Source: Williamsia sp. DF01-3
GTDB taxonomy: Bacteria > Actinomycetota > Actinomycetes > Mycobacteriales > Mycobacteriaceae
Assembly (NCBI RefSeq): GCF_023051145.1
Contig: NZ_JALKFS010000005.1
Coordinates: 1,054,001-1,118,000, forward strand
DNA: 64,000 nt
Direction of reading: 5' to 3'
Positions within the stretch are counted from its first letter, which is position 1, and every line of letters begins with the position of its first letter. The notes under the pieces were generated by a model that was not told where the DNA came from, searched no databases, and saw nothing but the letters and a program-made list of their open reading frames with translations. Positions 18,541-35,501 of this stretch are shown in pieces. Position numbers and translations under genes: made by a program.

Positions 18541-18613
18541 GCCGCCTTAGCTCAGTCGGTAGAGCGCTTCACTCGTAATGAAAAGGTCGCGAGTTCGATT
18601 CTCGCAGGCGGCT
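18541..18613 (+). tRNA. tRNA-Thr (anticodon CGT)
   Basis: A 73-base cloverleaf: acceptor arms GCCGCCT and AGGCGGC, D stem GCTC/GAGC, anticodon loop CTCGTAA, and T arm GCGAG-TTCGATT-CTCGC. The discriminator is T. From the anticodon loop onward it is shared with the right attachment site. The bases after the discriminator read CCG here but CCA at the right end, so integration replaced the templated CCA. Confidence 0.95.
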
Positions 18614-18615
18614 CC
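18572..18615. repeat. attL core (44-bp direct repeat, copy 1)
   Basis: Identical to 35458-35501. It begins at the first base of the tRNA anticodon loop and ends two bases past the discriminator. With the integrase gene just inside, it marks the left end of the integrated element. Confidence 0.95.
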
Positions 18616-18624
18616 GAAGGAAAG

Positions 18625-18661
18625 TCCCCTTCACCTGGAACGACAGGTGAGGGGGATTTTT
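18625..18661. terminator. rho-independent terminator after tRNA-Thr and int
   Basis: A 13-pair stem, 18625-18637 with 18644-18656 (one G-U pair), and a GAACGA loop, followed by TTTTT on the plus strand. It lies just inside the element between the tRNA and the convergent int gene, so it can end the tRNA transcript; on the minus strand the hairpin may stop int readthrough. Confidence 0.85.
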
Positions 18662-18670
18662 GGTTCAACG

Positions 18671-19936
18671 TCAGACCGGTTGATGTGGTCTCGAAGTGGT
18701 CTTATTCCGCGCCGAACGCTCGGATTGTGCCTCTGCGGCGGCCACGTCGAGGGCGGCCCCGAGGGCGTCTGCTGCGGCGTGTGCGGCCTCCGGTGTGAGG
18801 TGCCCGTAGAGATCGGCGGTAATTGATACCTGCGAGTGCCGAAGTGTCTTGGAGACCAGGGCTAGGGGTACGCCGTTGGTGAGCATGAGAGTCGCTGCAA
18901 GGTGTCTGAGGTCGTGCAGGCGGCAGGTTGGTAGGCCCGCCTCGGTGGAGAGCGTGCGGAAACGTTTCAGGACGCGTTCAGGCCGGAGCATGGCGCCATC
19001 CTCGCGAGCAAACACGAGGTCTTGGTCGTCGTACCCCTCTCCCCACTTCGCTCGGTCTTGCTGTTGCTGCTGGCGTTGGCGTTCTAGTGCCCTCACAACT
19101 CGTAACGACAGGCCAACGCCGGCTGTGCTGCCACTCGTTTTTGTGGTGCCAACGATGAGTTTCCCGCCGACATCGGAGACGGCGCGGTGGACGTACATCG
19201 TGCGGGTCTCCACGTTGATGTCCGACCACTGGAGTGCGAGTGCCTCTCCGCGCCGGAGGCCGGTTCCAATGATTGTCTCGAAGAGGTTCGCGAGCGGGTC
19301 AACCTGCCATGGCGGCGCCCCGGTGACGTGGTCAAGAAAAGCGACGGCCTGTTGAGCTGTCCATGGCTGAATCTCCGTGCGCTCGACCCGGCCGGGGTGG
19401 ACATGTTCGGCGGGGTTATGGGACAAGCGTTTGGTGCGTTCGGCATCGCCGAGGGCGGATCGTAGAACCGCCAGGATGCGTTTGATTGTCGGTACGCCGC
19501 GGCCTTCCTCTTCGAGGTCGGTGACGAACTGGACCAGGTCTTCGTGCCGAAGTTGCTGGAGCCGGTGATTGCCCAGAGAGGGAATGATGCGTTTGTTGAC
19601 GTACTCGCTGTAGCTGTAGTGGGTGAGTGGCTTGAGGGTCCGCTTCTTCTGGGCGAGCCATGATGTCAGGTACTGCTCGACAGTCTCCCGATCGTCGTTC
19701 TTCACGCTATTGGTGGCGCGCTCGTTAACCTTCTTTAGTTCCGCCGCGGCCGCACGTTTGGTCTGAAATCCGCTGCGCCGCAACAGCTTCCTCTCACCCT
19801 GGGCCGACGGTACATAGACGGCGAAGCCCCATACGCCGTGTTTGTCATCGACACCCAGCTTTGGACACGCTTTGCCATACTGCTTGCCGGTTCCAGGATT
19901 CCGACACGCGCAACGCCGGTAGACGCGCCCGCTCAT
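18671..19936 (-). CDS. int: tyrosine integrase
   Basis: A 421-residue site-specific recombinase. The N-terminal arm-binding AP2-like part contains a Cys pair (RRCACRNPGTGKQ). A SAM-like core-binding domain spans about 90-180 (TVEQYLTSWLAQKK). The catalytic domain has Arg in GTGLRRGEALAL, HDLRHLAATLML with His and Arg, and a Tyr in ITADLYGHLTPEAA. It catalyses recombination between attP and the tRNA-Thr attB. The start is ATG at 19936, whose ATGA overlaps the repressor stop; the longer reading to 20272 is only shadow. The last codons carry candidate arm-type sites. Confidence 0.95.
   Translation of the reverse strand: MSGRVYRRCACRNPGTGKQYGKACPKLGVDDKHGVWGFAVYVPSAQGERKLLRRSGFQTKRAAAAELKKVNERATNSVKNDDRETVEQYLTSWLAQKKRTLKPLTHYSYSEYVNKRIIPSLGNHRLQQLRHEDLVQFVTDLEEEGRGVPTIKRILAVLRSALGDAERTKRLSHNPAEHVHPGRVERTEIQPWTAQQAVAFLDHVTGAPPWQVDPLANLFETIIGTGLRRGEALALQWSDINVETRTMYVHRAVSDVGGKLIVGTTKTSGSTAGVGLSLRVVRALERQRQQQQQDRAKWGEGYDDQDLVFAREDGAMLRPERVLKRFRTLSTEAGLPTCRLHDLRHLAATLMLTNGVPLALVSKTLRHSQVSITADLYGHLTPEAAHAAADALGAALDVAAAEAQSERSARNKTTSRPHQPV
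18684..18706 (+). promoter_or_regulatory. candidate left arm-type integrase sites
   Basis: TGTGGTCTCG (18684-18693) and AGTGGTCTTATT (18695-18706). Both strings recur near the right end at 35344-35353 and 35333-35344. They share the core GTGGTCT and lie about 70-90 bases inside attL, where arm sites of tyrosine integrases usually sit. Confidence 0.5.
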
Positions 19937-20760
19937 TGATTCGACTCGCCGGGGTCTCGGTGGCGTTCCAGGCCGTCGACCAACTCCTGGATCTTGGCCC
20001 GCCCACGCTCGATGGCGGTTAGAAATCTCTGGCGCGTTACGGGGTCGTCGATGTCGTCGGCGGAAGGTTTCATCCCCAGCTCCTTCTGGCGCACGAGGTT
20101 CTCGTATAGCCGTTCCATCTGCCCGTCCAGCTCGCGGTCTAGTGTCATGATTTCTCGGTTGGCCAGTGCAGTCTCGGCGGCGAGCTGAGATTCTTCGTAA
20201 GTCCAAGCTCGTTGCTCTATGCCAGGGCTGCGTCGCAGCTCTTCTACGTCGGCGGCTTTCTTCATCGCCCACTCGCGGCGTGCTTGTTCTAGACGCTGGA
20301 TATTGGAGCGGATTGTCTGTTCCTCGCGGGCAAGCCGAAGGTTGACCCCGCCCTCGTACTGGGCCCTCAGGTCGTCACCCCAGTAAGTCAGGTTCATTTT
20401 CCCGTCTGGATCTGGACCGTAGTGTTGGAACGGCTGCTCACCGGAAAACCATTGTGCAGCAGCAATAGCCAGCGTCCTTACCTCGGGGATCACCTCGACT
20501 ACCTCGCCGGGCACCCCGGGGTAGAGCAGAAGTAGCGGCGGCACAGCAAGCGCCTTCGCGAGGATGACTAGTTCGGCGACGCTGAGAAGCGCTCCCCGAT
20601 TGCCGCGCTCGATGTCGGAAATGCGGGAGCGGCTGATAGGGAACCCGAGTTCAGACGTTCGGTCGGCGAGCCACTGGACTGTGTTGTCACCGCGTAAGTG
20701 CCTTATTGCATCTGCTGCCTGCTGCGTCTGGTCGCGCCCCCAGGTCTTTTCGCTCGTCAT
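19933..20760 (-). CDS. XRE-family repressor-like protein with long C-terminal domain
   Basis: A 275-residue protein. An N-terminal HTH_3 domain (residues 12-75) includes SRISDIERGNRGALLSVAELVILAKAL. A middle hydrophobic motif (VPPLLLLYPG) and a long charged helical region (about 130-275) rich in Glu and Arg follow, probably coiled coil. It sits between int and the rightward genes, the place of an immunity repressor. There is no LexA-type Ser-Lys protease domain, so induction would need another signal or an antirepressor. The start is ATG at 20760. Confidence 0.8.
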   Translation of the reverse strand: MTSEKTWGRDQTQQAADAIRHLRGDNTVQWLADRTSELGFPISRSRISDIERGNRGALLSVAELVILAKALAVPPLLLLYPGVPGEVVEVIPEVRTLAIAAAQWFSGEQPFQHYGPDPDGKMNLTYWGDDLRAQYEGGVNLRLAREEQTIRSNIQRLEQARREWAMKKAADVEELRRSPGIEQRAWTYEESQLAAETALANREIMTLDRELDGQMERLYENLVRQKELGMKPSADDIDDPVTRQRFLTAIERGRAKIQELVDGLERHRDPGESNQ

Positions 20761-20784
20761 TCTGCGAAGACTAGCAGGACTGTC

Positions 20785-20807: not shown

Positions 20808-20821
20808 ATCGGGACGACCTA

Positions 20822-20905: not shown

Positions 20906-21163
20906 ATGCCAAGCCCAGCGCCCGCGCAGACGGTGCCGACAACCAGGCGCCCGACCTGGTTAGAAGAACTTGAGAAAGCGGGGCCAACTGTCTCGCTGTG
21001 GCCCACTGCGGGCAAGGCTGTTGGTGCATCAAAGTCGCACACGTATCAGATGGGTCGCGCTGGCACTTTCCCCGCGAAGGTAATCAAACTCGGTGCTTCT
21101 TATCGAGTGGTGACCGCCGACTTAATTCGCCTTCTCAGTGGCGATGGCCCGGCGGCCGCGTGA
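20906..21163 (+). CDS. small HTH protein, excisionase or regulator candidate
   Basis: 85 residues. A helix-turn-helix-like core reads VSLWPTAGKAVGASKSHTYQMGRAGTFPAKVIKLGASYRVVTADLIRLL, resembling the MerR/excisionase-type fold where a DNA-binding helix is followed by a wing and a targeting strand. It is the first rightward gene after the repressor control region, where Cro-like or Xis-like proteins are found. The exact role is not shown. ATG at 20906 follows AGGGAG. Confidence 0.65.
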   Translation: MPSPAPAQTVPTTRRPTWLEELEKAGPTVSLWPTAGKAVGASKSHTYQMGRAGTFPAKVIKLGASYRVVTADLIRLLSGDGPAAA

Positions 21164-21261: not shown

Positions 21262-21852
21262 ATGTCCAATCTAGCACCAGCCAAAGACATCGTCACCGAC
21301 CTGTCCAATGTCTGGATTGATACCGAGTACGAACCGGACACCGAAGACACCAATTTGGCCGGCAATGGCTACGCCGCCCGCAGCTTCGACGGCCCGGACG
21401 TGGAGCTCCGCGACGGCGTCAAGCTGTCCGCTTCAGTAATCGAGACAGTCGAACCCGGCAAGCCGGTGGACACGGACCTCTACTTGGAGTCACATCTCCT
21501 TGCTTCCAACCGGGTGATCGATCTTTCGTTGAATAGCACTATCGCTCTGCATAAGTCGGGCCATGCCGGAGAGCAGTTCCCCGCCCAGCAGGAACCGGAC
21601 GCCGAATACGTTCTCAGAATCCGTGACATTGCAGGCGAGTACGGAACGGCGGCCATCGTCAACGCCCACCGCTGCTTGGAAAGTGATGGCACCCAGCACC
21701 GGGAAGTTGAGATCGCGGTGCGCGTCGACGGCGTTGAGCACGACTCGCTGCTCGACGTGAATCAGGCGCGGCAGTTCGCAGAGGGCCTGCTTCAGGCCAT
21801 CGCCGCCCACGAGGCCGACGCTGCCCGGCAGCAGAAGGACGAACCGTCATGA
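21262..21852 (+). CDS. unknown element protein, acidic
   Basis: 196 residues, acidic N terminus (WIDTEYEPDTEDTNLAGNG), then a region with alternating strands (VELRDGVKLSASVIETVEPG, YVLRIRDIAGEYGTAAIVNAHRC, REVEIAVRVDGVEHDSL) and a C-terminal helix (ARQFAEGLLQAIAAHEADAA). No family is recognised. ATG at 21262 is chosen for its AAGGAG site; an in-frame ATG at 21163 would start inside the previous stop and run through the hairpin. The stop is coupled to the next gene by ATGA. Confidence 0.7.
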   Translation: MSNLAPAKDIVTDLSNVWIDTEYEPDTEDTNLAGNGYAARSFDGPDVELRDGVKLSASVIETVEPGKPVDTDLYLESHLLASNRVIDLSLNSTIALHKSGHAGEQFPAQQEPDAEYVLRIRDIAGEYGTAAIVNAHRCLESDGTQHREVEIAVRVDGVEHDSLLDVNQARQFAEGLLQAIAAHEADAARQQKDEPS

Positions 21853-22055
21853 CACCCACCGTTCTGTACTACCGCGTGCCCGACAACCCCGACCTGCTTT
21901 TGCAGATGATGGATGGCGTCGAGGCGGATGGCGGACTTCCGTTGGCAGTCATGCCCGTTCGAGAGGAGTTGTGGCGCCGCGCCGGCCCGTCGGCCCGTTT
22001 GTCCGCTCGGCTCTCGCAGAACGTCGGCACCATGGCTGCGGAGGTCGGCCTGTGA
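21849..22055 (+). CDS. unknown small element protein
   Basis: 68 residues (begins MTPTVLYYRVPDNPDLLL). It has a short strand-helix pattern and then a basic helix (REELWRRAGPSARLSARLSQN). It overlaps both neighbours by four bases (ATGA at its start, GTGA at its end), so it is very likely translated as part of a coupled chain. No function can be given. Confidence 0.65.
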   Translation: MTPTVLYYRVPDNPDLLLQMMDGVEADGGLPLAVMPVREELWRRAGPSARLSARLSQNVGTMAAEVGL

Positions 22056-22558
22056 CTGACACCGTGGACGAGACAGTGGATTTCGAGCGGCAACAGTGTG
22101 CCTACTTTCTGGCCGCACTGTTGTCCTCGAACGCGCTTGACGTCTCCGCGGTATGTGCGACCGTCCGGCCGGATGACATTGCCCTGCTGGATGACCCGAC
22201 CGCCACCATCTACCGGGTGGCGGTCGGGTTGGCCCGGCGGGGGGTCACTCCCGATCACACGCAGGTATGGGCAAAGCTGTTGCAGGACGGCGAGTTCGCC
22301 GGCCGCAAGGGTGAACTCGTACGGGATCGTATGCTCGCGGTTGTCTCGGTGAGAGCATACGCGGAGAGATTGTTCGAGACGGCCGCTCAATTGCTCAGCC
22401 TGGTCTTTCGCAACAGACTGGCCGCTGCAGGTGCCGCTATCGCCCAGGCCGCCGTCGACTTCTCCGAAGCGGACGCTTGGGCGTTGATGATCCGTGAGGG
22501 CGGCGAGACTCGCAAGATCTACGAGCGGATTGAACGCCTGCGGGGTGAAGCGGCATGA
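22052..22558 (+). CDS. stand-alone DnaB N-terminal-domain-like protein
   Basis: 168 residues. The pattern QQCAYFLAALLSS, then LDDPTATIYRVAVGLARRGVTPDHTQVWAKLLQDG, then helices VRAYAERLFETAAQLLSLVFRNRLAAAGAAIAQAA matches the helical N-terminal domain of replicative helicase DnaB. That domain forms the hexamer collar and binds primase. No ATPase core follows. A RecA-like ATPase is encoded 8.4 kb away at 30983, so the two may form a split helicase or this may act as a helicase-interfering factor (inference). GTG at 22052 overlaps the previous stop. Confidence 0.6.
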   Translation: MTDTVDETVDFERQQCAYFLAALLSSNALDVSAVCATVRPDDIALLDDPTATIYRVAVGLARRGVTPDHTQVWAKLLQDGEFAGRKGELVRDRMLAVVSVRAYAERLFETAAQLLSLVFRNRLAAAGAAIAQAAVDFSEADAWALMIREGGETRKIYERIERLRGEAA

Positions 22559-22845
22559 GCGATTCCTGGCGCGCCTCCACTATCCCGACGCCGTACGAAC
22601 ACCTCATTGAAGCCCTCGACGCTATCGAGTCGCGGGTACGCAGCGATGCGTTGACATGTGAGTACTGCGGTGAGCGCCAGTGGATTAAACGGCGGCGTCT
22701 CACTGAACACGACGTCGAAGAGTTGCGCTGGGATCGACTTCCGCTCACTGCAGCGTTCGTGCACGGTCGCCGCTGCCTCTCGACTTGCCCCTTGTTCGGC
22801 ACTGCCGACAACTTTCCCAACAAAGGAGAACGACCGTGGATGTAG
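22555..22845 (+). CDS. unknown element protein with a CxxC pair
   Basis: 96 residues. A single CEYCGERQWIKRRR motif near residue 35 could form half of a zinc site, with further Cys in GRRCLSTCPLFG near 75. That makes four Cys in all and a possible zinc-binding domain. ATGA coupling to the preceding gene is clear, and the end overlaps the start of the tape measure gene by ten bases. No family recognised. Confidence 0.65.
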   Translation: MSDSWRASTIPTPYEHLIEALDAIESRVRSDALTCEYCGERQWIKRRRLTEHDVEELRWDRLPLTAAFVHGRRCLSTCPLFGTADNFPNKGERPWM

Positions 22846-25800
22846 GCGTACTTCGCGCAGAGCTGGAGCTGGACGCAGCGACTTTCCGGCGTGATCTCGA
22901 TCAGGCCGGGAACCAATTCCGTCAACTCGGACAGACCGCCGATCGAATGGCACAGCAGGTTGATACTGCATGGCGGTCCGCTGGACAGGGCGCGGAACGC
23001 TCAGCAGATGGAATCGGGGCAGCGTACCGCCAAGAGGCGACACGGGCCGAGCAATCGGCATCGGGGATCGGCGGGGCATTCCAGCAGGCCGGCTCCCGAG
23101 CTGAGGGGTCAGCGTCAGGCATCGGCAGCGCCTACCGGCAGGAAGCGGCACGAGCCGAGTCGGCAGCGAGCGGCGTAGGCAGTGCGTGGCGCAGCGCCGG
23201 CGAAGAAGGCGAGCAGTCGGCCTCGGGTATTGGTGACGCCTACCGCAACGCGATGGAACGCGCACAGGCATCCGCACAGGGCGCGGGCGAGACCAGCGGC
23301 GGTTCGTTCGTCGCTGCATTCGGTTCCCGCATAGCAGCTCTCGGCTCTCGTGGCGGCCCGATTGGCTTGGCGCTGGGTGCGACCGTGGGGGTTGGGGCAC
23401 TCGCCGGCGCCAAGCTCGCCGACACAGTGTTCGACGGCTTCCACATTCAGGCTGAGCGTGACTTTTCGCAAGCGTCGTTCGGGTTTACAGACGAGCAGAT
23501 GGAGCGCGTCGGGACCGCGGCCGGCGCATCCTTCGGTAACGCCTGGGGCGAGTCTGTCAACGCCAACATCAATACCGCAGGTATTGCGATGCAGTCGGGA
23601 CTCTTAGACGGGGATGCGACGGCAGCGGAGATCCAACCGGTCATCGAGCAGCTTTCGTTCGTGTCCTCGATGATGGGTGAAGAAATCCCTGCGGTTGCAC
23701 GTGCGGCCGGGCAGATGATCAAAACAAACCTCGTCGAAACCCCGCAGCAGGCGTTCGACCTCCTCACTGCTGCACAGCAGGGTGGATTGAACCTGTCACA
23801 AGACTTGCTCGACAGCATGAACGAGTATGGCGTGCAGTGGCAAAAGCTTGGCATGGATGGCGCGCAGGCCATGGGCACCATCTCGCAATTGATGCAGGGC
23901 GGCGCCCGCGATACGGACATCGCCGCGGACGTGTTCAAGGAGTTCTCGCTGCGTGTCATCGACGGGTCCGAGTCGACGGCCGAGGCATTCCAGTCGCTCA
24001 ACCTGAACGCCGAAGAAACGTCGGCTGCGTTCGGTAAGGGTGGAGAAGCTGCCAACGAGATGGCCGACACAGTCATCGACCGACTGAATGCGATCGAAGA
24101 TCCGGTCGAACGCAACCGGCTCGGTCTGGCGCTCTTCGGCACCCAATGGGAAGATCTCGGCGGAGCGATCAACAACCTCGACCTATCCGACGCCAAGAAC
24201 GAGATGGCCGCCACCAACTCGACTCTCGATGCCATGGCAATTGCGGGCGGTGGAGCAGGGGCGTCGATCGAAGCGGCAAAGAACAAGATCTCCGTTGCTG
24301 CAGACGAGATGAAGGTCAAGCTTGCCGAGGCGTTCGCGCCGATGGCGGTCGACGCCGCCACCTGGGTCGGCGAGCACCAAAACGAAATCCTGGGATTCTT
24401 TGCCAGTGTCGGCACGGCGGCGCTCGACGTGTCGGCCGCGCTGCTCAACGTGGGCGCGGCCGGTATGTATTTGGGCTCGTACATGATGGAGGGGCTTGCG
24501 GGCGCGGCGCAGGGCTTCATTCCCTTCCTGTACGTCGTGGAGCAGATCGGCGCGGCGATGTCGCATCTTCCTGGCGATGCTGGGAAGGCCGGTGAGGCGA
24601 TCCGGGATCAGGCTCGTGGCGCCATCGAAGGCGTTCGGGGGATGAACGACTACGGCAACAGCATGCGCGACGCCGCAGGCGTGATGAATGACCTTGCGGG
24701 GCAGTTGCGTGACGGCAAGATCACTCTCGAAGAGTTCGGGTCGCGGATGGCGCTCGCCACCACCATCTCGAACAACCTCGGCGGAGAGCTTGAGTTCGTA
24801 CGTCAGGGAGTTCTCAACATCCCGGACAGCAAGTCGATCATCATCTCGGACAACAGTCCCGAGACAGAGAAGCGTCTTACTGATCTCGGCTTCAAGGTCG
24901 AGACCCTGCCGGATGGCACGGTCAAGGTCATCGCCGATGATGCTGAGGCGCAGGAGAAGCTACGGCTGATCACCGAGCCCCGGTCCAAGGTCATCAACAT
25001 CGAGGTACGTGATCCAACCGGCCTCGTCTACAACCCCAACATCGGTGGGTCGACGGCAGCCCGCGAGTTCCACGCCAACGGCGCCATCCGTGAGTATGCA
25101 GACGGTGGGGTGAATGCGGCCGGACAGCATGTAGCCCGTGAGCCGATGATCGCCAGTGGTGGCGCCAACATCCTCTGGGGTGAGAAGGAGACGGGCTGGG
25201 AAGCCTACATCTCTGGGAAACCCTCAGAGTTGGAACGCAACAAGGCGATCTGGCTCGAGGCAGGCCAGCGTCTCGGGATCGTGCAGATGGCAGACGGCGG
25301 CGTGTTGGGATCGATCCAGGCTGTACAGCAACAGGCCGCGCCGACCCTGACTCTCACGTCCGGTGTCCGAAACGAGCCGGGTAGCTACCACAACACCGGC
25401 CAGGCTGGCGATTTCGGCCCTCCTGGTGGTGGCCGGGATACCGACGACATGCTGGCGTTCGCCAACTACATGGCGGACAACTACCGCGGACAGTTGGCTG
25501 AGCTGATCTACCACGACTCCCGCTTCTCCGGCCGCCAAGTCGGCGACGGCGCATTCGTCGACGACTCCTACTACGCCGGCGCAGGCGACCACCACGACCA
25601 CGTACACGTCGCCGCAGAGCAACCGCTCACCCCACCCGCCGGGATGGCGATGGAGCCAGCCGAAATCGAAGTACCCGTGCTGTCAACAGACTCCTCCAAA
25701 GAGGATGTGGCGCGGGCGATCATCGCGCAGGGACGCAAACGCGGCTACACCGACGACGAGATCAAGGCGATTCTCGCAACCGGCATGCAGGAATCAGGCC

Positions 25801-28039: not shown

Positions 28040-28285
28040 ATGCCCACACCAACCCGCGAACAGCGGAGCGACGCAACAGCCCTCGCGATGGACATCATCG
28101 CCAGCACCCTCGACAAACCCGATCAGCACATCAAACTCGAATCCCAGCAGGAGACCGGCGCTGTGATTGGCGCGCTCGCCACATACGCCGGCATCCTGTT
28201 GCTGCACACCGCCGCAGAGGACACGACCGCGCTCGATCTCGCTGAAGCGTTGCGTTCGGCGGCAACCCTCCTCCGCACGTCGTGA
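28040..28285 (+). CDS. unknown small helical element protein
   Basis: 81 residues, mostly two or three helices (RSDATALAMDIIASTLDK, then ETGAVIGALATYAGILLLHTAAED, then DLAEALRSAATLL). The middle helix is hydrophobic but bounded by charge. A purine-rich GGAAGGGG (28027-28034) precedes ATG at 28040, and the stop is coupled to the small terminase by GTGA. Function unknown; a head-to-tail or packaging helper is possible from place alone. Confidence 0.6.
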   Translation: MPTPTREQRSDATALAMDIIASTLDKPDQHIKLESQQETGAVIGALATYAGILLLHTAAEDTTALDLAEALRSAATLLRTS

Positions 28286-28782: not shown

Positions 28783-30265
28783 CGAACAGCTCAGAGCGGT
28801 AGCACGGCATGGCTTCTCCGACATCGGGACATTCGCCGAGAACATCGTCGGGCACCCGCTGTGGCCCCACCAACTCGAAATGGCGATGTGCCCGGCCAGG
28901 CGCCGGGCCGTGTGTGCCGGCCGTCAGGTTGGCAAGTCTGAGGAACAGGCAATCGAGGCACTGTGGCAGTCGGCCACCAAACCCGGATCGTTCACCCTCA
29001 TCATCTCCGCGGGTGAGACAGCGGCGCTGCGACTGCTCGAACGCATCGCTGTCCTGGCCTCAAACTCGACGTTGTTGGCTTCATCGGTCGTGGACGACAC
29101 CAAGACCGAGATCACCTTCTCGAACGGCTCACGTATCAAGTCCGTCCCCGCATCGCAGCAACAGATCCGCGGCTGGTCGGTCGATCTGCTCATCATCGAC
29201 GAGGCAGGGTTTGTCAGTCCAGAGATCTGGCGAGCGGCCGAGCCGGCCATCATCGCCAGGCCGGGTTCGCGGATCATCCTGTCGTCTTCGCCGTGGGGCA
29301 GTATCGATCACTTTTTCCGCCAGCTCTGGAACCTCGGCATGGATACGCAGGATGAGAAGTACGCATCCTTCCATTGGCCCAGCAGCATCTCGCCCCTGAT
29401 CTCCGAAACTGACCTCGAAGAGATCCGCCAACGCGAAGCGCCCCACTACTTTAACCGGGAGTACATGGCGGAGTGGACCGACGAATCAGGCGCCTATTTC
29501 ACCACCGAAGAAATCGAAAACTCAGTGGCCGACTATCAACTCATTAGGCCTCAGGAGTCACGCGGCCGGTACACGGTGGTCGGCGGTATCGACTGGGGAA
29601 TGTCACGTGACGCCAACGCAGTTGTCTATCTGGCTGCCAGCGGCGACACCGAACTGAACCGCGACAAGTTCGGTGACACACCAATGTTCTTCGTGCCCTG
29701 GCTCGAAGCGCACCATCGAATGCCGTACGCCGACTTCATCGATCGGCTGGTCGACAACGCCCGGTACTTCGGTGTGCATCGCTATGTCTCTGAGACAAAC
29801 GGGGTGGGCCAATTCCCCACCCAGGCACTCCAGGACAAACTCCACAAGGAGTGGTACGGGGGTGGGGGATCTCTCCAGCAATTGACGTGGGTCAACGGAG
29901 TTCACACGGACACCAGCCGCAAATCCGGGGGCTTCGGGCGCATCAAGGGCCTGCTTCAGCAAGGCCGGCTGGTACTTCCGAGGCACCCGGACCTGTTGCG
30001 CCAACTTCACGCGCTCACATTCGAGCAGACTGAGAGCGGCCAATTCAAAATCTCCGTCCCTGACAACGTCGGCCACGACGACCTCGCCATGGCACTTCTA
30101 CAAGCTTGCTCCAGCATCAACACGTGGGACGGCTGCTGGCCCAGCCACGATGGCCACTACGGCACCGGAGACACCCTCACCACCAACAACGGCACCCAGA
30201 TTCGTACGCATCCCGCAACCCACCCGCAGGAAAGACTCCTGCAAGGCAGCCTGAAACGAGTCTAA
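28766..30265 (+). CDS. terL: large terminase subunit (terL)
   Basis: 499 residues. Walker A is GRQVGKSEEQ near residue 53 and Walker B is LLIIDEAGF near 142, with the coupling motif SSPWGS after it. The RNase H-like nuclease domain shows GGIDWGMSRD near 273 (first metal Asp), VSETNGVG near 340 (Glu), and GHDDLAMALLQA near 437 (last Asp pair). It packages DNA into empty heads and cuts the genome. All catalytic residues are present. ATG at 28766 overlaps the small terminase. Confidence 0.93.
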   Translation: MTTARDEQLRAVARHGFSDIGTFAENIVGHPLWPHQLEMAMCPARRRAVCAGRQVGKSEEQAIEALWQSATKPGSFTLIISAGETAALRLLERIAVLASNSTLLASSVVDDTKTEITFSNGSRIKSVPASQQQIRGWSVDLLIIDEAGFVSPEIWRAAEPAIIARPGSRIILSSSPWGSIDHFFRQLWNLGMDTQDEKYASFHWPSSISPLISETDLEEIRQREAPHYFNREYMAEWTDESGAYFTTEEIENSVADYQLIRPQESRGRYTVVGGIDWGMSRDANAVVYLAASGDTELNRDKFGDTPMFFVPWLEAHHRMPYADFIDRLVDNARYFGVHRYVSETNGVGQFPTQALQDKLHKEWYGGGGSLQQLTWVNGVHTDTSRKSGGFGRIKGLLQQGRLVLPRHPDLLRQLHALTFEQTESGQFKISVPDNVGHDDLAMALLQACSSINTWDGCWPSHDGHYGTGDTLTTNNGTQIRTHPATHPQERLLQGSLKRV

Positions 30266-30267
30266 CC

Positions 30268-30720
30268 ATGGCCCATCCGAACAAAACCAAAGGCGACCGC
30301 GCCGAACGTGCGGTACGAGACTATCTGCGTAGCAATGGATTTCCCCGCACTGAGCGTACCCGAGCCGGGTACACCCGCGATGCCGGCGACCTCCACCCCT
30401 GCCAAGGCCTCACAGTCCAGGTGAAGGATCGAGCAGCGTACGCCTGGCCCGAGTGGTTCCGCCAGCTTCGAGAGCAGCGCGCAGAAGCCAAGGCCGACCA
30501 CGCAGTGCTGGTGCTCAAACGCCGCGGTCTCGGTGATCCAGGGGAGTGGCTGGCGGTCATGCCGCTCTCGGAGATGACACGCCTTCTCAAGGCTGCCGGC
30601 TATGGGTTGCTCCATGATTCGGCTGAGCTATGGCCCGACTCGCCAGGCGGAAAGTCGTTGAATGGCAGCGAAAACCATGAAATGATTGATCCGTTGAGAG
30701 CCGCACGGCACGAGACCTGA
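30268..30720 (+). CDS. PD-(D/E)XK nuclease, Holliday-junction-resolvase-like
   Basis: 150 residues. NKTKGDRAERAVRDYLRSNGF begins the fold with the conserved Glu. DAGDLHPCQGLTVQVKDR gives the Asp and the Val-Gln-Val-Lys active-site strand (Q-x-K variant of ExK). An Arg/Glu-rich helix follows. The form fits archaeal/phage Hjc-type resolvases that cut branched DNA before packaging. Its place next to terL supports that role. ATG at 30268, 2 bases after the terL stop. Confidence 0.75.
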   Translation: MAHPNKTKGDRAERAVRDYLRSNGFPRTERTRAGYTRDAGDLHPCQGLTVQVKDRAAYAWPEWFRQLREQRAEAKADHAVLVLKRRGLGDPGEWLAVMPLSEMTRLLKAAGYGLLHDSAELWPDSPGGKSLNGSENHEMIDPLRAARHET

Positions 30721-30773: not shown

Positions 30774-30986
30774 GTGCCCCTCAATCCCCGGACAGGACTA
30801 TCTGTCGAGCCTCTCGCGATCAGCGAAGCTGCACAACGCATCCAACGCACACCGCGGACCGTTCACAACTACATCAAGCGCGGACTGCTGACCAAGTACC
30901 GTCTGGGCGGCCGGGTCTACGTCGACCGCAACGAAGTCGACACCCTCCTCACCGCAGTCACACCGGACACCGGTGATGCCGCATGA
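30774..30986 (+). CDS. small MerR-type HTH protein
   Basis: 70 residues: LAISEAAQRIQRTPRTVHNYIKRGLLTKYRLGGRVYVDRNEVDTLL, a classic helix-turn-helix 17 (excisionase/BldC-like) with the GGRVYVDR wing. It is coupled by ATGA to the replication ATPase and so may regulate replication or act as a recombination directionality factor. GTG start at 30774. Confidence 0.75.
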   Translation: MPLNPRTGLSVEPLAISEAAQRIQRTPRTVHNYIKRGLLTKYRLGGRVYVDRNEVDTLLTAVTPDTGDAA

Positions 30987-32212
30987 GAGCCCAAGAAATG
31001 GGAAAGGCCCCCGCTCCCAACGAGGGCCAATCCGAGACCAACAGCCACCACGCCGCGCAGTCTGACGTTGATTCTATCGCAGCCGTGGACCCGTACGCAG
31101 ATTTGCCACACCCGGCGGACGTAGTCGCAGAGATCGACTACCAAGAACGACGCATCCGCGACGAAGTCCGCAGTCTTGAGATCCGCGAGGAAGCGCGGCG
31201 ACGGGTGGCCGCGGCAAGCAACGCACACCTACTAGAGGCGATAACTCCACCCCAGCGGCTCGATGACTTCCTTGCGGTGCCAGATGAGCCCACCAAATAC
31301 CGAATCGACGGCCTGTTCCCGATTGGGGGCCGCATCATGCTCTCCGCACAATACAAAGCGGGCAAGACCACCGCAGTCGGCAACCTGATCCGCTCGCTCG
31401 CAGATGGAGACCCGTTCCTCGGGAAGTTTGCCACGACGCCAGTCCGCAAAGTCACACTGCTGGACAACGAACTTGACGCACGAACCCTCCGCAGCTGGCT
31501 ACGTGATCAGGGTGTCCAGAACACCACGGCAGCAGCGGTTGAGGCAATGCGCGGCAAAGTTGGAACCTTCAACATTATTGACCCTGAGATACGTGCGCGT
31601 TGGGCGGAAGTACTGCACGGCACAGACTTCCTAATACTTGACGTTCTCCGACCAGTCCTCGACGCCCTTGGTCTCGACGAGAACCGAGACGCCGGACGTT
31701 TCCTCGTAGCCTTCGATGCGCTACTTGCTGAAGCGGGCATCCCCGAAGGGGCGATCATTCACCACATGGGACACACCGGCGAACGCAGCCGCGGTGACTC
31801 AAGACTTCAAGACTGGCCTGACGCGATCTGGCGCCTTGTTCGCACCGACCCCGACGATCCCTCCTCGCCGCGCTACTTCTCCGCCTACGGCCGAGACGTC
31901 GAGGTGCCCGAAGGACAGGTCGCCTACGACATCCGAACCCGCAACCTGACATACGCCGCAGGCAGCCGAAAAGATGCCGCGTCCTCCGAGGCCGAGGGCC
32001 ATATCAAGCGGCACCTCACCGAGAGCCCAGGCTCCAGTGGGCGCGAGATTGAGATAGCGCTGACTGCAAATCCAGGACTGACGCAGAAGGCCATTCGTGA
32101 CGGCCTCAAAGCTGTCATCTCAAGCGGGGAGGTTCAGGTCATTCCCGGCGCGAAGCGGGCCAGACTCCACTATCTCGCCGAAACCAAGCTTGCTGGACAG
32201 CCAGCAGCCTAG
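30983..32212 (+). CDS. RepA/DnaB-type RecA-fold ATPase with C-terminal winged helix
   Basis: 409 residues. A leader of about 105 residues precedes FPIGGRIMLSAQYKAGKTTAVGNLI, which holds the Walker A motif (YKAGKTT). Walker B is DFLILDVLRPVLDALGL and a sensor region follows at AIIHHMGHTGERSRGDSRL. The last 80 residues form a winged helix (EIEIALTANPGLTQKAIRDGLKAVISSGEV). This domain order is that of AAA_25 ATPases used as replicative helicases by plasmids and integrative elements. An iteron-like repeat cluster lies 340 bases downstream, which supports a replication role. Confidence 0.8.
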   Translation: MRAQEMGKAPAPNEGQSETNSHHAAQSDVDSIAAVDPYADLPHPADVVAEIDYQERRIRDEVRSLEIREEARRRVAAASNAHLLEAITPPQRLDDFLAVPDEPTKYRIDGLFPIGGRIMLSAQYKAGKTTAVGNLIRSLADGDPFLGKFATTPVRKVTLLDNELDARTLRSWLRDQGVQNTTAAAVEAMRGKVGTFNIIDPEIRARWAEVLHGTDFLILDVLRPVLDALGLDENRDAGRFLVAFDALLAEAGIPEGAIIHHMGHTGERSRGDSRLQDWPDAIWRLVRTDPDDPSSPRYFSAYGRDVEVPEGQVAYDIRTRNLTYAAGSRKDAASSEAEGHIKRHLTESPGSSGREIEIALTANPGLTQKAIRDGLKAVISSGEVQVIPGAKRARLHYLAETKLAGQPAA

Positions 32213-32502
32213 TTGTGAGGCACCTCTAGGTGTTGAGTCCACTCCTGGCCGGCGGGATCAGTCCACTCCACCAGGATGTACGGAGGGTTGGCCTTCGCCC
32301 CGTATGCAGCCTTGAAAACCTTCTGTATGCCTCCGCCATTGGGCACAGCGTCGACGGTTTGCGTCCAGTCGCGTTGACCGAACATGCCCGACACCATGGG
32401 TCCGTGAGCTGAAAACCGGACACTCGTGACATCCTCACCAGTTCGGTTCACCAGGTCGTACAACGACCCGCTCCGCCACTCCAACGACCAGTCGCCACTC
32501 AT
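32209..32502 (-). CDS. unknown 97-residue element protein
   Basis: A compact protein starting MSGDWSLEWRSGSLYDLVNR, rich in strands (VTSVRFSAHGPMVSG, YILVEWTDPAGQEWTQHLEV). The pattern suggests a small beta-sandwich. It is convergent with the replication ATPase and overlaps its stop by four bases. The start is ATG at 32502; the open frame continues upstream into the repeats but without a good start. No family recognised. The iteron cluster lies just above its start and may also be its promoter. Confidence 0.55.
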   Translation of the reverse strand: MSGDWSLEWRSGSLYDLVNRTGEDVTSVRFSAHGPMVSGMFGQRDWTQTVDAVPNGGGIQKVFKAAYGAKANPPYILVEWTDPAGQEWTQHLEVPHN

Positions 32503-32552
32503 CCCGAAAGTATCTCCCGCAGAGCCGGATGCAGCTCCAGTCGACACACCCA

Positions 32553-32689
32553 GTGCGTTAGTGCGTTGCAGTGCGTTGCCAGTGCGTTGACGAACACCCG
32601 CAGTCCAGTGCGTTAGTGCGTTAGTGCGTATATACAACGCACTACACGCACTCACTGCGAACGACCGACGACCAGCGATCGAGTGCGTT
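32553..32689. repeat. iteron-like cluster, candidate replication origin
   Basis: Seven perfect copies of GTGCGTT start at 32553, 32561, 32571, 32582, 32608, 32616 and 32683, with one variant GTGCGTA at 32624. One perfect inverted copy lies at 32636-32642 and one variant at 32645-32651. Most direct copies are spaced 8-11 bases apart. In the centre, TAGTGCGT and ACGCACTA are a perfect 8-base inverted repeat around ATATACA. No gene is supported here. Iterons beside a RepA-like ATPase are the usual form of a plasmid or phage origin; an operator cluster is the alternative. Confidence 0.7.
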
Positions 32690-32989: not shown

Positions 32990-33565
32990 ATGACCACAGC
33001 AGAAGCCACCGCTACCGTCCTCGGCTACGCACGTGTATCGACCGCACATCAGACGCTTGATCAGCAGCAGGACGCTCTCACTGCCGCGGGGGTGCAGGTG
33101 GATCGGATCTACTCCGACAAGCTGTCAGGGACGCGCTCAGACCGTCCTGGCCTGGCCGCTCTGCTGGACTACGCCCGGCCCGGTGACGAGATCGTGGTGG
33201 TGGGTATCGACCGTCTCGGGCGTAACGCTGCCGAGGTCATGCTGACGATCCGGGATCTGATGGAGCGAGGGATTACGCTGCGGTCGCTGCGTGAGGGGGT
33301 GGACACCTCCACTGCGGCTGGCCGCATGCTGGCCGGGGTGCTGGCTTCGCTGGCTGAGCTGGAGCTTGAGCTGGGCCGTGAGCGTCGAGCCGCGTCCCGC
33401 GAGGCCAGGACGGCGCGGGGTGCGTCTAATGGGCGGCCGCCGAAGTTGTCGGCGGAGCAGGTGGCGTTGGCAAAGCGGATGCGGGATCAGGGGGAGCCCG
33501 TACCCACCATCGCTGAGACGTTCAGCATCAGCCGGGCCACCGCCTATCGGCTCATCGGTGGCTAA
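32990..33565 (+). CDS. serine recombinase, resolvase/invertase family
   Basis: 191 residues. The catalytic Ser lies in LGYARVSTAHQT near residue 17. Arg-bearing motifs follow in YSDKLSGTRSDRPGL and VVVGIDRLGRNAAEV, then the long E helix (AGRMLAGVLASLAELELELGRER). A C-terminal HTH (VPTIAETFSISRATAYRLIGG) ends the protein. It is a small resolvase of the Tn3/Hin type and would resolve multimers of a circular form or act on the adjacent res-like site. No transposase is nearby, so it is not a Tn3 transposon. The start is ATG at 32990, apparently without a ribosome site. Confidence 0.92.
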   Translation: MTTAEATATVLGYARVSTAHQTLDQQQDALTAAGVQVDRIYSDKLSGTRSDRPGLAALLDYARPGDEIVVVGIDRLGRNAAEVMLTIRDLMERGITLRSLREGVDTSTAAGRMLAGVLASLAELELELGRERRAASREARTARGASNGRPPKLSAEQVALAKRMRDQGEPVPTIAETFSISRATAYRLIGG

Positions 33566-33603
33566 GGACAAACGCCGTCCGCACCGCCTCTTACACTGGC
33601 GAA

Positions 33604-33990
33604 GTGCCACATTCTGGGCTACTCATCGTGCGGTTCGGCCCTTGGTCGGCCACTAGGTGCCAAGAGACCGCCCTTGAGCAGTTTGCCGACGATGTGGCGG
33701 CGGGAAGGCGAGGTCGGTACGGAATCTCGGTTTTCGGTGATGTTGTCGGCGAGGGCGAGTCTGTTGAGGACGTGTTGAAGCGCATATGCGTTGAGGCACC
33801 GTGTCGCGGTAAGAAAGTTGCTGCGGTTTGGGCGCAGGACCTTCAGAATGCTGGTTGGGTGGTATCACCCGAGATGCCTCCGCGGTTGCACTACTTGCTG
33901 GGTCAGGGAGATTTCTCTCAGATCCCCGACGTAGACTCACTGGCGGTAATCTGGATGGAGCACAAACGTGACAACCCGGCCAATGGATAG
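33604..33990 (+). CDS. unknown element cargo protein
   Basis: 128 residues (begins PHSGLLIVRFGPWSATRCQ). It has a helix with ETALEQFADDVAAGRRGRYG, then VAAVWAQDLQNAGWVVSPEMPPRLHYLLGQG, and ends WMEHKRDNPANG. No motif is recognised. The start is GTG at 33604. Its stop lies 11 bases before the next gene, whose ribosome site overlaps its end, so the three genes to 34800 form one unit after the resolvase. Confidence 0.55.
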   Translation: MPHSGLLIVRFGPWSATRCQETALEQFADDVAAGRRGRYGISVFGDVVGEGESVEDVLKRICVEAPCRGKKVAAVWAQDLQNAGWVVSPEMPPRLHYLLGQGDFSQIPDVDSLAVIWMEHKRDNPANG

Positions 33991-34001
33991 GAGGTAGATT
34001 G

Positions 34002-34370
34002 ATGAGTATTCGACGAATACAGATCGACCTCAACCGTAGGAATCGCGCTGGTCAGACGCCTGCACCCTACTTCGGCCCCACGCCGAGGGTGGGTGAGCGC
34101 GTCGTTGCATTCGAGCCTGAGGATGGCGTCGCTCTGGACGCCGCGGTTGCAGAGGTTGATATCGAGCGGTGCCGCGTCGTTCTAGATATCGACTGGGACT
34201 CTCTCCGGGATGATGTGGCTCCCCAGGCTGAGCTGTTTGTCCTCGGTATGACTGGCAGTTGCTCACAGTTTGTCGTCACGACCCCCAGCACACCGATGTC
34301 GCGGGGTTCAGGTGAGCGCGTTGCGCTCCGTCTTTCTGACCTGCTGCCGTCGTCGGTGGCGATCCGGTAG
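34002..34370 (+). CDS. unknown element cargo protein, strand-rich
   Basis: 122 residues with an AGGAGG ribosome site (33989-33994) and ATG at 34002. The middle is beta-rich: RVGERVVAFEPEDGVALDAAVAEVDIERCRVVLDIDWDSLRDD, suggesting a small barrel. No family recognised. It lies four bases before the DUF6941 gene and is likely co-translated. Confidence 0.55.
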   Translation: MSIRRIQIDLNRRNRAGQTPAPYFGPTPRVGERVVAFEPEDGVALDAAVAEVDIERCRVVLDIDWDSLRDDVAPQAELFVLGMTGSCSQFVVTTPSTPMSRGSGERVALRLSDLLPSSVAIR

Positions 34371-34374
34371 TGAT

Positions 34375-34800
34375 GTGGAGCTGACTCTCCTTCTCGCGGA
34401 CGCGGCTCAGGCCGACCAGCATGGGAAGGTCCACGCACTGGGGTTGGCGTGGACCAATGTGCCGACTCCCACGCCTCCGATGGCGGTGATCGTCCTAATC
34501 GACTTCGAGGCCGACGAGGTTCCAGCCTCGGTGTCCCTTCGGATCGAGTTGCAGACTGAGGCCGGCGAGGTTGTTGTCTTGGCTGGTGGCGAGCCGGTCA
34601 GGATCAATGCAGCGGCGACCGCCCACGCGCTGGATGAGGAGAAGGCGGGTGAGCAGATCCGGGTGCCTTTCAGTATTCAAATAGGCCCCGGCTTGCCCCT
34701 CCCTGTTGGTCTCTACCAGTTCGAGGCCACAGCGGTCCGTGACGATGACGACAATGCCCGAGCGGCCGCCTTCCAAAAGGTTCGGGTGTCCGAAGAGTAG
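34375..34800 (+). CDS. DUF6941 family protein
   Basis: 141 residues starting VELTLLLADAAQADQHGKVHALGLAWTNV, the usual opening of the DUF6941 family of small beta-sandwich proteins often seen near phage or mobile-element genes. Later strands (MAVIVLIDFEADEVPASVSLRIELQ, LPVGLYQFEATAVRDDDDN) fit. The biochemical role is not known. GTG at 34375. The gene's last 130 bases are overlapped on the other strand by the extended tail of an HTH gene. Confidence 0.65.
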   Translation: MELTLLLADAAQADQHGKVHALGLAWTNVPTPTPPMAVIVLIDFEADEVPASVSLRIELQTEAGEVVVLAGGEPVRINAAATAHALDEEKAGEQIRVPFSIQIGPGLPLPVGLYQFEATAVRDDDDNARAAAFQKVRVSEE

Positions 34801-35056
34801 GCAGACTCAGCAGACTCAGCGGGCTCGTCGGTCGTGGTACCGCCGAGATCCCGCAGTTAGCCCCCCAGGGTCGCCAGTCTGCCTGTACCTCGTGACGCTT
34901 GAGGATGGCTGCGATGTGGTCCTCGGTGTAGCGAATGTGGCGCCCGAACTTCTGGTGGGGGATGTTGCCCTTGCGTCGTTCGGTGGCGATCCAGGTGGGT
35001 GGAACGTTGAGGCGTTCTGCTGCTTCAGCTTCGGTGTAAATGCGGTCCGTGTCCAT
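34670..35056 (-). CDS. MerR/BldC-type HTH protein with an unusual C-terminal extension
   Basis: 128 residues. Residues 1-60 are a clear helix-turn-helix 17 domain (YTEAEAAERLNVPPTWIATERRKGNIPHQKFGRHIRYTEDHIAAIL). The following 65 residues are low-complexity (SPLSLLSLPTLRTPEP) and run antisense across the end of the DUF6941 gene, which suggests a lost stop codon or a small rearrangement. ATG at 35056 overlaps the upstream stop as TGATG; ATG at 35071 is an alternative. With its neighbour it is a candidate excisionase pair. Confidence 0.6.
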   Translation of the reverse strand: MDTDRIYTEAEAAERLNVPPTWIATERRKGNIPHQKFGRHIRYTEDHIAAILKRHEVQADWRPWGANCGISAVPRPTSPLSLLSLPTLRTPEPFGRRPLGHCRHRHGPLWPRTGRDQQGGASRGLFEY

Positions 35057-35316
35057 CAAAGGTTGGTCCATCGCACAGATTTCGGTTCCCAGGCCGGCGC
35101 ATTGTCTGCATACGCCTCAAGGTCTGTGCGTTTGAACATGACTAGCTTCCCTTCGAGGTAGGCCGGGATGGCGCCGTCGTTGACGTGCCGGTCCAGGGTG
35201 CGTGTGCTGATGGCGAGGAAGTGTGCCGCCTCCGTCTTGGTGAAGCGATATTTGGTGGTCATGTCTTGGAGGGCGATGCGGATGAGCCGGAGCAATTCGG
35301 CTTCGCTGTAGGTCAC
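35056..35316 (-). CDS. HTH protein, excisionase candidate
   Basis: 86 residues: a short N-terminal helix, then FTKTEAAHFLAISTRTLDRHVNDGAIPAYLEGKLVMFKRTDLEAY, a typical excisionase/HTH_17 domain. It lies next to attR, close to candidate arm sites, the position of a recombination directionality factor. The start is GTG at 35316; ATG at 35262 (MTTKYRF) is possible. It is coupled to the next HTH gene by overlap. Confidence 0.7.
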   Translation of the reverse strand: MTYSEAELLRLIRIALQDMTTKYRFTKTEAAHFLAISTRTLDRHVNDGAIPAYLEGKLVMFKRTDLEAYADNAPAWEPKSVRWTNL

Positions 35317-35332
35317 GCGTGCGACAGTACCG

Positions 35333-35353
35333 AGTGGTCTTATTGTGGTCTCG
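35333..35353 (+). promoter_or_regulatory. candidate right arm-type integrase sites
   Basis: AGTGGTCTTATT (35333-35344) and TGTGGTCTCG (35344-35353), the same two strings as at 18684-18706 but in reversed order. They are about 105-125 bases inside attR. The rest of 35317-35457 holds no gene. Confidence 0.5.
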
Positions 35354-35457
35354 CACCGCGTGGTCCGTCCTGGACGGTGCGCACTCGATGGACCTGGAAC
35401 CGCCTGTGACCTGCACCTGAGGTACTGTCTGGACCGTGCGATACCGCCCGAGTGTCC

Positions 35458-35501
35458 CTCGTAATGAAAAGGTCGCGAGTTCGATTCTCGCAGGCGGCTC
35501 C
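35458..35501. repeat. attR core (44-bp direct repeat, copy 2)
   Basis: Identical to 18572-18615. It is the 3' part of the tRNA-Thr from the anticodon loop and is followed by A, so the original CCA end is preserved here. The bases before it do not match the tRNA 5' half, so this copy is not a functional tRNA. Confidence 0.95.

Follow-up and report, generated by a model that had tools for sequence, protein, structure and literature searches.

A probable actinobacterial satellite with its own terminase and tape measure protein

We conclude that a 16.9-kb element in the window (the whole 64-kb stretch of DNA analysed) is probably an integrated satellite that is packaged by its own terminase and places its own tape measure protein (TMP) into the tails of a helper phage. 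The original prediction had proposed both parts of this reading. Comparison with relatives and the precedent of the PLE satellites (PMC12987554) support it as a satellite and as a TMP substitution, while packaging into helper heads and incorporation of the TMP are inferred.

Direct repeats of 47 bp (98% identical; 18569–18615 and 35455–35501) bound the element. Their core is identical over 44 bp and forms attL (18572–18615, + strand) and attR (35458–35501, + strand). The integration target is a tRNA-Thr (CGT) gene found with ARAGORN at 18541–18615 (+ strand), and the 3′ part of this gene is the left repeat. When the outer flanks were joined and the resulting 600 bases compared with eight other genomes of the genus, an empty site was seen in three: one matched all 600 bases unbroken (96%) and two were unbroken over bases 168–600 (98–99%). 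The remaining five matched in separate pieces only. Together with the integrase, the repressor-like HTH protein and terL, the repeats and empty sites bear out the idea of a repeat-bounded, phage-related element.

Twenty element proteins were searched with Pfam and PHROGs (E up to 0.05; intervals 21849–22055 and 32209–32502 were left out). Genes are on the + strand unless marked. At the left end lie a tyrosine integrase (421 aa, 18671–19936, – strand; Pfam Phage_integrase 5e-23, phrog_1 5e-69) and an HTH repressor-like protein (275 aa, 19933–20760, – strand; Pfam HTH_3 4e-05). Next come a small early gene (85 aa, 20906–21163; phrog_32619 6e-07, function not annotated), an early protein (196 aa, 21262–21852) and a 168-aa protein of uncertain start codon (22052–22558) with weak similarity to the DnaB N-terminal domain (Pfam DnaB 0.011, below cut-off). 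The TMP gene (22836–26786) is followed by g9 (127 aa, 26872–27255), g10 (230 aa, 27272–27964), g11 (81 aa, 28040–28285) and the terminase genes. Further right are a RusA-like Holliday junction resolvase (150 aa, 30268–30720; phrog_244 2e-26), an HTH_17 regulator (70 aa, 30774–30986; Pfam 3e-08), an AAA_25 replication-type ATPase (409 aa, 30983–32212; Pfam 2e-22), a serine recombinase/resolvase (191 aa, 32990–33565; Pfam Resolvase 4e-37), two genes without a family match (33604–33990 and 34002–34370), a DUF6941 protein (141 aa, 34375–34800; Pfam 2e-06) with a relative in the G151 element (41%), and an HTH_17/excisionase-like protein (86 aa, 35056–35316, – strand; Pfam 2e-09, phrog_66 5e-07). 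PADLOC gave no match for ten element proteins. Beside the ATPase gene is an iteron-like cluster (32552–32689, no strand), in which the motif AGTGCGTT occurs eight times in 138 bp. These are the only matches in the 64-kb window, where 1.3 were expected, and a count of eight was reached in none of 100 shuffles. The cluster is a candidate replication origin. Being compact and integrated, with its own integrase, a replication-type gene and an incomplete virion gene set as judged by Pfam and PHROGs, the element shares these general attributes with satellites.

The small subunit of the terminase (TerS, 166 aa, 28282–28782) matched Pfam Terminase_4 (2e-07) and phrog_83 (4e-07), and the large subunit (TerL, 499 aa, 28766–30265) matched phrog_2 (2e-37) and Pfam Terminase_6N (4e-09). 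The TerL profile also matched the solved chains of T4 gp17 and other phage TerL proteins in the PDB. As predicted, catalytic residues are in place: the ATPase motifs and acidic nuclease positions are kept in all nine aligned relatives. Among the best 40 of 2209 phage records listed, TerL had only distant matches (about 23–26% identity), with Thermus and haloarchaeal phages ranking first, and so gives no pointer to the helper. A single-sequence TerL search of genome contigs found nothing; an alignment-based search did find relatives.

Of 401 genomes searched in the family, eight others contained related elements, as did six others of 397 searched in the order; named relatives occur in Gordonia, Rhodococcus, Pseudonocardia, Blastococcus and Microbacterium. 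The terminase marks a family of small elements that spans several actinobacterial families, and the relatives examined within the family likewise proved to be small elements bounded by repeats. Gene content was compared across 36 contexts, reduced from 38 by counting once L053 (no difference from G227 in any of the three genes compared, so that dN/dS is uninformative for this pair) and G501 (same contig as L038); L002 and L041–L045, L047–L051 and L065–L090 (TerL identity 40% or less) were left out. A TMP without a recognised capsid was seen in 13 of the 36 contexts (10 firm, 3 weak), and an HK97-type capsid without a TMP in five, all from Rhodococcus. The two never occurred together (0/36), an exclusivity that rests on 18 elements. 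Direct repeats bound seven of the 13 TMP carriers, and these span 14.2–16.9 kb. In the five Rhodococcus elements, which have no recognised portal or tail genes, the capsid gene sits just upstream of terS; a scaffold-like protein of this type is weakly alike to Raleigh gp6 (29–34% over 82–91 aa). Two TMP carriers, L052 and L054, also have a tail assembly chaperone (TAC; phrog_3860) beside the TMP, and a single element, G472, has a tail fibre and no TMP. In the TerL tree the capsid group is placed among the TMP carriers. At least one head/tail change is needed when only TMP and capsid rows are used and four when rows with neither are added; more than one head/tail change is possible.

Genes of the relatives were called with a custom script that misses small genes and performs poorly on some contigs (none were called in L059). 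Of the 26.4 kb of L062, 11.8 kb were covered, and the sequence of G668b stops within its TMP. The capsid profile does not detect capsids in general: in the phage-like contexts L033 and L064 it missed the likely capsid genes, which were named by position only. For this reason the absence of capsids from TMP carriers also depends on a check of their larger genes (at least 250 aa). Most of those that the profile did not match were searched with PHROGs; the exceptions were serine-integrase-like genes in G507, G644 and G668b and the repressor gene of the window's element, the latter searched with both Pfam and PHROGs. No PHROGs match was obtained for one gene each of G507 (260 aa) and G644 (351 aa), and only a weak one for a second gene of G507 (345 aa) and for one of L039 (383 aa). 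L030 was rejected as a clean satellite, as its repeat-bounded interval also contains an FtsK/SpoIIIE-like gene. In the host genomes, portal model PF04860 matched in one of nine and PF05133 in six of nine, the window's genome included. There the PF05133 portal belongs to a second, capsid-forming element and not to the element described here.

The TMP frame is open across 1316 aa and matches TMP families (phrog_9228 8e-89, PhageMin_Tail 2e-14), in line with the full-length protein originally described. Pfam and PHROGs revealed no separate lysis gene, also as described, but the TMP itself carries a segment at about residues 950–1085 that resembles endolysins (phrog_700 3e-20; Pfam Phage_lysozyme2 0.001, below its cut-off). 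The protein is a mosaic with prophage TMPs of its own genus. Residues 721–800 are 88% identical to the TMP of a prophage resident in this genome (dN 0.08, dS 1.29), and residues 814–1128 are 80% identical to a prophage TMP in the congener G005 (dN 0.15, dS 1.62). In both blocks dN is far below dS, with dS near saturation and the comparison also counting change on the phage side. Outside the common blocks, identity to the resident prophage TMP is low (17–43% per 80 residues, except one block of 66%), and so this prophage need not be the helper. Among deposited TMPs, that of Gordonia phage TinyDot ranked top (41.8% over 66% of the query).

These features bear on what the TMP does. A satellite could use it as a decoy or inhibitor that titrates helper tail proteins and weakens the helper, without entering satellite particles. 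Satellites and other bacterial defences are known to target tail assembly, according to the portions of PMC12987554 and PMC11364771 consulted, and no TAC match was found in the window's element with Pfam or PHROGs. Yet a fragment of the TMP would presumably suffice for this purpose, whereas the protein is full-length with constrained conserved blocks, which fits assembly better, as does the TAC kept in L052 and L054. We regard a decoy as unlikely. Less likely still is that an incorporated TMP is selected mainly for DNA delivery (host entry or escape from TMP-directed exclusion) and not for tail length or outcompeting the helper. The endolysin similarity, the position of the blocks best conserved with same-genus prophages (residues 721–1128) and the fibre-bearing, TMP-less G472 are in its favor, but endolysin-type matches are missing from some of the relatives' TMPs scanned (e.g. 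L038).

We also considered whether the element is a prophage in decay, its head genes having been deleted. Its gene set is phage-type, and TerL proteins of the same family occur with a portal relative in six phage-like contexts (L033, L055, L056, L058, L060 and L064), the layout of which differs from that of the element. Similar compact layouts with open genes are, however, found at other sites in other genera, the slot upstream of terS is occupied by a capsid gene in relatives likewise devoid of portal and tail genes, and the TMP is under constraint. We looked for near relatives that retain the missing genes, as a simple deletion would predict; those examined in the family were other small elements, five of them with a capsid in place of the TMP. 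Decay is thus very improbable, in keeping with the earlier view that the element is not an obviously rotting prophage, which the family of small elements marked by its terminase now supports.

The predicted lack of recognisable portal, capsid and tail tube genes held for all 20 proteins in Pfam and PHROGs (E up to 0.05), which likewise gave no terminator or holin match, and no tip gene was recognised. Six proteins (21262, 22555, 26872, 28040, 33604 and 34002) had no match in either database, and three (20906, 22052 and 27272) had weak or function-less matches only. Four of the nine had been singled out as possible capsid or connector genes. For 21262, Pfam, PHROGs and PADLOC gave no family match. 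The products of g10 (27272; AF2 mean pLDDT 80) and g11 (28040; a three-helix model from a two-sequence alignment) are predicted to be all-helical, and so would resemble neither an HK97 capsid nor a portal. Neither BFVD nor PDB contained a fold match for g10 (E up to 0.001), and a tblastn search of 50,697 phage records with g10 was also negative (E up to 0.01). In g9 (26872) there is a segment alike to part of a phage gene placed between capsid and head–tail adaptor genes (TinyDot gp8 / Raleigh gp8). Relatives of g10 sit beside ter or TMP genes, but W-type and G227-type proteins are only ∼15% identical, so that a single g10 family is not established. A counterpart of g11 occurs in a G. sputi element (35% identity); the GTDB genus of the present host differs from Gordonia, the genus of G. 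sputi. To our knowledge, all known portal proteins are larger than 230 aa. The most improbable reading, though it would account for the unmatched proteins, is a very small but complete phage with portal and coat proteins diverged beyond recognition: the largest unexplained gene encodes 230 aa, g10 and g11 are predicted helical, and tube, terminator and tip genes were not recognised.

In the satellite reading that we favor, phage infection or prophage induction would trigger excision by the integrase and the excisionase-like protein, and replication would proceed from the iteron-like cluster with the AAA ATPase. TerS–TerL would then cut element DNA and pump it into procapsids, with portal and coat provided by a helper siphophage. 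The helical g10 is a candidate capsid-size or assembly factor and, with g9 and g11, the best candidate for steering or shrinking helper capsids. Helper tail parts would assemble on the satellite TMP, which would set the length and the DNA-delivery segment of the resulting chimeric tails. The resident prophage TMP has 1717 aa; were that prophage the helper, the chimeric tails would be expected to fall short of its own by about 60 nm, at 0.15 nm per residue.

The exchange of capsid for TMP among relatives suggests that such satellites remodel the phage they exploit at a single selected point. More tentatively, these elements may form a broad Actinomycetota satellite family, in which one TerS–TerL motor is combined with an exchangeable virion part in each member: a capsid, a TMP (with or without chaperone) or a tail fibre. 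If so, one property of the helper particle would be reset in each case: head size by the capsid, tail length and delivery by the TMP, host binding by the fibre. The same motor would then have been adapted to piracy of heads, tails or fibres. The natural swap allows related motors with a head part and with a tail part to be compared directly. One genome, that of the window, holds the TMP satellite, the capsid-forming element and a candidate helper prophage, so a single strain would suffice to study how they interact.

Several known systems share features with the element. TinyDot and Streptomyces phage Raleigh are complete siphophages; they have in common with it the TMP similarity (TinyDot) and the g9 segment. 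Their TerL proteins do not match the window's TerL, and the best full relative, G227, reaches 25% over 223 aa. The cf-PICIs have their own small and large terminase, as the element does, and depend on helper tails, according to the part of PMC10690885 consulted. They encode major capsid protein, protease, portal and head–tail connectors, none of which was recognised in the element, just as the portal and major capsid genes of a complete tailed phage were not; unlike cf-PICIs, the capsid-type relatives also have no recognised portal. Putative tmp genes appear in a sampling of cf-PICIs (PMC12987554, legend of Extended Data Fig. 10). The Streptomyces satellites MulchRoom and MiniFlayer, compared by description, likewise come from Actinomycetota and encode both terminase subunits, but portal and capsid are present and, in the part of PMC10690885 consulted, no primase is recognised; the phrase 'tape measure' occurs zero times in that paper. 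Closest, again by description, are the Vibrio cholerae PLEs (PLE1, PLE4 and PLE11), which like the element encode their own TMP. As far as the sections of PMC12987554 consulted report, PLEs place this TMP into hijacked tails, making them chimeric, and deletion of tmp cuts transduction by 96–99.9%. Tail takeover through a satellite's own TMP is therefore less unusual than originally supposed. PLEs also encode TAC, as do L052 and L054 but not, by Pfam and PHROGs, the window's element, and PLE11 a baseplate hub protein. They use the contractile tails of the lytic phage ICP1, whereas the element's TMP is alike to siphophage TMPs, and those sections do not mention a TerL of their own, whereas the element encodes TerS and TerL. 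As a probable TMP-substituting satellite with its own terminase, the element is a new Actinomycetota variant of a strategy shown for Vibrio PLEs in 2026. It adds a second, taxonomically wide group, in several members of which the TMP is the only recognised virion protein and is paired with the element's own packaging motor.

The element at 18572–35501 of the window is 16.9 kb long and flanked by an exact 44-bp repeat, the left copy of which is the 3' part of tRNA-Thr(CGT). When its outer flanks were joined and compared with the nine genomes of the genus, the join was unbroken over all 600 bases in one congener (96%), and bases 168–600 were matched in two further congeners (98–99%). The remaining five congeners gave separate pieces only, and the window's own genome gave two separated halves. 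From the left repeat, the element has int and a repressor gene (both minus strand), early genes, the tape measure protein (TMP) gene, three genes termed g9, g10 and g11 (26872, 27272 and 28040), terS, terL, and genes for a RusA-like resolvase, an HTH protein and an AAA_25 ATPase. Beyond these come a repeat cluster, a serine recombinase gene, cargo and an excisionase-like gene (minus strand), then attR. The cluster, 3' of the ATPase gene, holds eight copies of AGTGCGTT within 138 bp, and eight is also the count for the whole 64-kb window, versus 1.3 expected; we consider it a candidate replication origin. A possible minus-strand gene lies between the ATPase gene and the cluster (32209–32502), with no match in PADLOC.

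The original prediction of an element with terminase and a full TMP, but no recognised head genes, was borne out. The TMP reading frame is open over 1316 aa and matched several TMP families, with endolysin similarity at residues ∼950–1085. TerS and TerL were both recognised, and the TerL profile matched solved T4 gp17 in the ATPase part and other solved phage TerL chains in both the ATPase and nuclease parts. Among the 20 element proteins scanned against Pfam and PHROGs, none matched portal, capsid, tube, terminator or holin families. A rival reading of this gene set is a tiny phage. The predicted fold of g10 (230 aa; four sequences, mean pLDDT 80) contains helices only, and a fold search with this model gave no match; g11 (81 aa) was modelled as three helices (pLDDT 76) on a two-sequence alignment. 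As modelled, g10 and g11 resemble neither an HK97 coat nor a portal. In g9 (127 aa), 64 residues are 53% alike to gp8 of the Gordonia siphophage TinyDot and 33 residues are 61% alike to gp8 of the Streptomyces siphophage Raleigh. In both phages the gp8 gene lies after that for the capsid and before the head–tail connector genes. The g9 segment also occurs in a Blastococcus element (51% over 49 residues) and, weakly, in relative G444 (46% over 37).

Relatives were collected through TerL, with queries and cut-offs that differed among searches. The family search (401 genomes) found TerL in 9 and the order search (397 genomes) in 7, the own genome included in each; among 394 genomes of the class and nine of the genus, only the own genome had it. 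Two genera gave 3/59 and 3/28, all six already among the family matches. A named collection yielded 25 loci, including Gordonia sputi (the contig of G227), G. jacobaea (G235), four Rhodococcus (G134, G184, G222, G274), three Pseudonocardia, Nonomuraea, Blastococcus and Microbacterium, plus distant archaeal and other records; IMG/VR yielded 39.

Gene content was examined in 38 contexts, or 36 once two duplicates were removed. Thirteen of the 36 carry a TMP without a recognised capsid. Ten are firm: the window's element, G227, G151, G235, L052, L054, L062, L038 (Blastococcus), G507 and G644. Three are weaker: G444 (phrog_7025, 4e-05), L039 (932 aa, a single match of unknown function) and G668b, judged by eye, whose TMP-like start runs for 65 residues before the contig stops. 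Five contexts (G134, G184, G258, G222 and G274) have an HK97-type capsid without a TMP. These capsids form one BLAST cluster, and the two scanned matched Pfam Phage_capsid (2e-40 and 7e-41); a scaffold-like gene was also called in four of the five elements, on weak matches. Four lie on named Rhodococcus contigs, and G258 is in the same GTDB genus as two of them. Not one of these 18 elements had a TMP together with a capsid, counting capsids recognised by PHROGs and a capsid profile that is not general. Three contexts (L030, L034 and G472) have neither. The others were cut by contig ends (L029, L035, L061, G668a), not assignable (L040, L059), phage-looking with a portal relative (L033, L055, L056, L058, L060, L064) or classed as phage-like (L046, L057, L063).

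Individual relatives add detail. G235 and L062 encode a minor-head (MuF-like) protein just before terS (L015:19210–19926 and L062:8758–9534) with no recognised portal or capsid, and in G644 a 305-aa protein (L108:12678–13595) has a head maturation protease domain in its C-terminal part, with no recognised capsid gene in that element. Because of these proteins, the absence of head genes holds for the window's element but not for every TMP carrier. The capsid-type elements (L017, L019, L021, L023, L025) encode a capsid along with TerS and TerL; no portal was recognised in them, and they too would need that of a helper. A tail assembly chaperone (TAC) gene precedes the TMP gene in L052 and L054 (phrog_3860, 4e-33 and 4e-30), with a second in L052. 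G472 has a tail-fibre gene (L114:9892–11385; phrog_18703, 9e-32) in a TerS–TerL element without TMP, possibly a fibre-swapping satellite. In L030 (Pseudonocardia parietis), an FtsK/SpoIIIE-like gene (13346–15466) lies in a repeat-bounded interval that also contains TerS–TerL, perhaps two elements in one site.

A midpoint-rooted tree of TerL (30 rows) places the five capsid elements in a single group (84/92), within a starred branch that also contains three TMP carriers. The TMP and capsid rows alone need one change, as they do with firm TMP rows only; four are needed when the 'neither' rows are included. Head and tail cargo have therefore been swapped at least once on related motors. By best family the TMPs form two clearly different groups, phrog_9228 (window) and phrog_4197 (G235), which both fall in the same starred clade, made up of six TMP carriers; both groups matched phrog_2337 and phrog_10780.

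Direct repeats flank seven TMP elements of 14.2–16.9 kb: window 16.9, G227 16.3, G151 16.9, G235 14.2, G444 16.8, Blastococcus 15.1 and Microbacterium 14.4 kb. The direct-repeat search found none for G507, G644 and L052, nor, outside the TMP group, for L061 and G472. All five capsid elements are repeat-bounded, at 8.4–9.3 kb. The TinyDot genome is 41.1 kb, and by simple scaling a T=4 shell would hold ∼18 kb if a T=7 shell fits 41.1 kb. Such a shell would suit the TMP group if the helper coat is T=7 with a TinyDot-size genome, a fit that is not proof.

About 1 Mb from the element, the window's genome carries a prophage-like region (L139–L141, contig C5, ∼2.065–2.115 Mb). Its genes for a connector, a tail terminator, a major tail protein, TAC, a TMP of 1717 aa and minor tail proteins are TinyDot- or Raleigh-like, and its head genes were named by gene order only. 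Its TMP is 88% identical to the satellite TMP at residues 721–800 (dN 0.08, dS 1.29), 66% at 1201–1280, and 17–43% per 80 residues elsewhere. The TMP of a prophage in congener G005 is 80% identical at residues 814–1128 (dN 0.15, dS 1.62), and that of TinyDot 56–66% at 161–400. At the DNA level, the resident-prophage and G005 blocks meet at 25277–25301 of the window. The satellite TMP is therefore a mosaic of blocks that also occur in phages of its own genus or a close one. With dS near or above 1, the exchange is old and the values are rough, and phage-side change is also counted in dN/dS. The satellite TMP has been kept as a protein; a rival explanation takes the element to be a remnant. The resident prophage, the G005 prophage and TinyDot, or kin of any of these, would be natural helper candidates. 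The genome also has a second element (L142:7013–17296, contig C5, ∼3.332–3.342 Mb) with TerL (phrog_9, 2e-82), portal (phrog_104, 9e-102), an HK97-type capsid, a scaffold-like gene, adaptor and connector, and an integrase that by likeness is of the serine-recombinase type. No tail gene was called behind these head genes, and the element looks like a capsid-forming satellite of ∼10 kb.

The best-supported mechanism is that TerS–TerL would package the element's own DNA into helper-derived heads, and that its TMP would take the place of the helper's. The relatives' cargo and the precedent of Vibrio PLE satellites lend partial support to this part of the original prediction, whose functional steps we infer. 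Rival explanations are that the TMP acts as a decoy or is kept mainly for delivery.

In its tail part the element would work most like a PLE; we do not class it as a PLE. Titles and abstract openings of literature on satellites, capsids and tails, a set mostly outside subscription papers and preprints, named no TMP satellite from actinobacteria, and 'tape measure' was absent from passages of literature with actinobacterial terms, including PMC10690885. Own terminase is the likeness to capsid-forming PICIs (cf-PICIs); the element was ruled out as a cf-PICI, since the defining head genes were not found. Described cf-PICIs also differ from the capsid-type relatives, which show no recognised portal. 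In PLE, the satellite TMP is reported in particles, tails are 10 nm shorter with it, and tmp deletion lowers transduction by 96–99.9% (PMC12987554). PLE has a TAC and TMP pair, as do the relatives L052 and L054.
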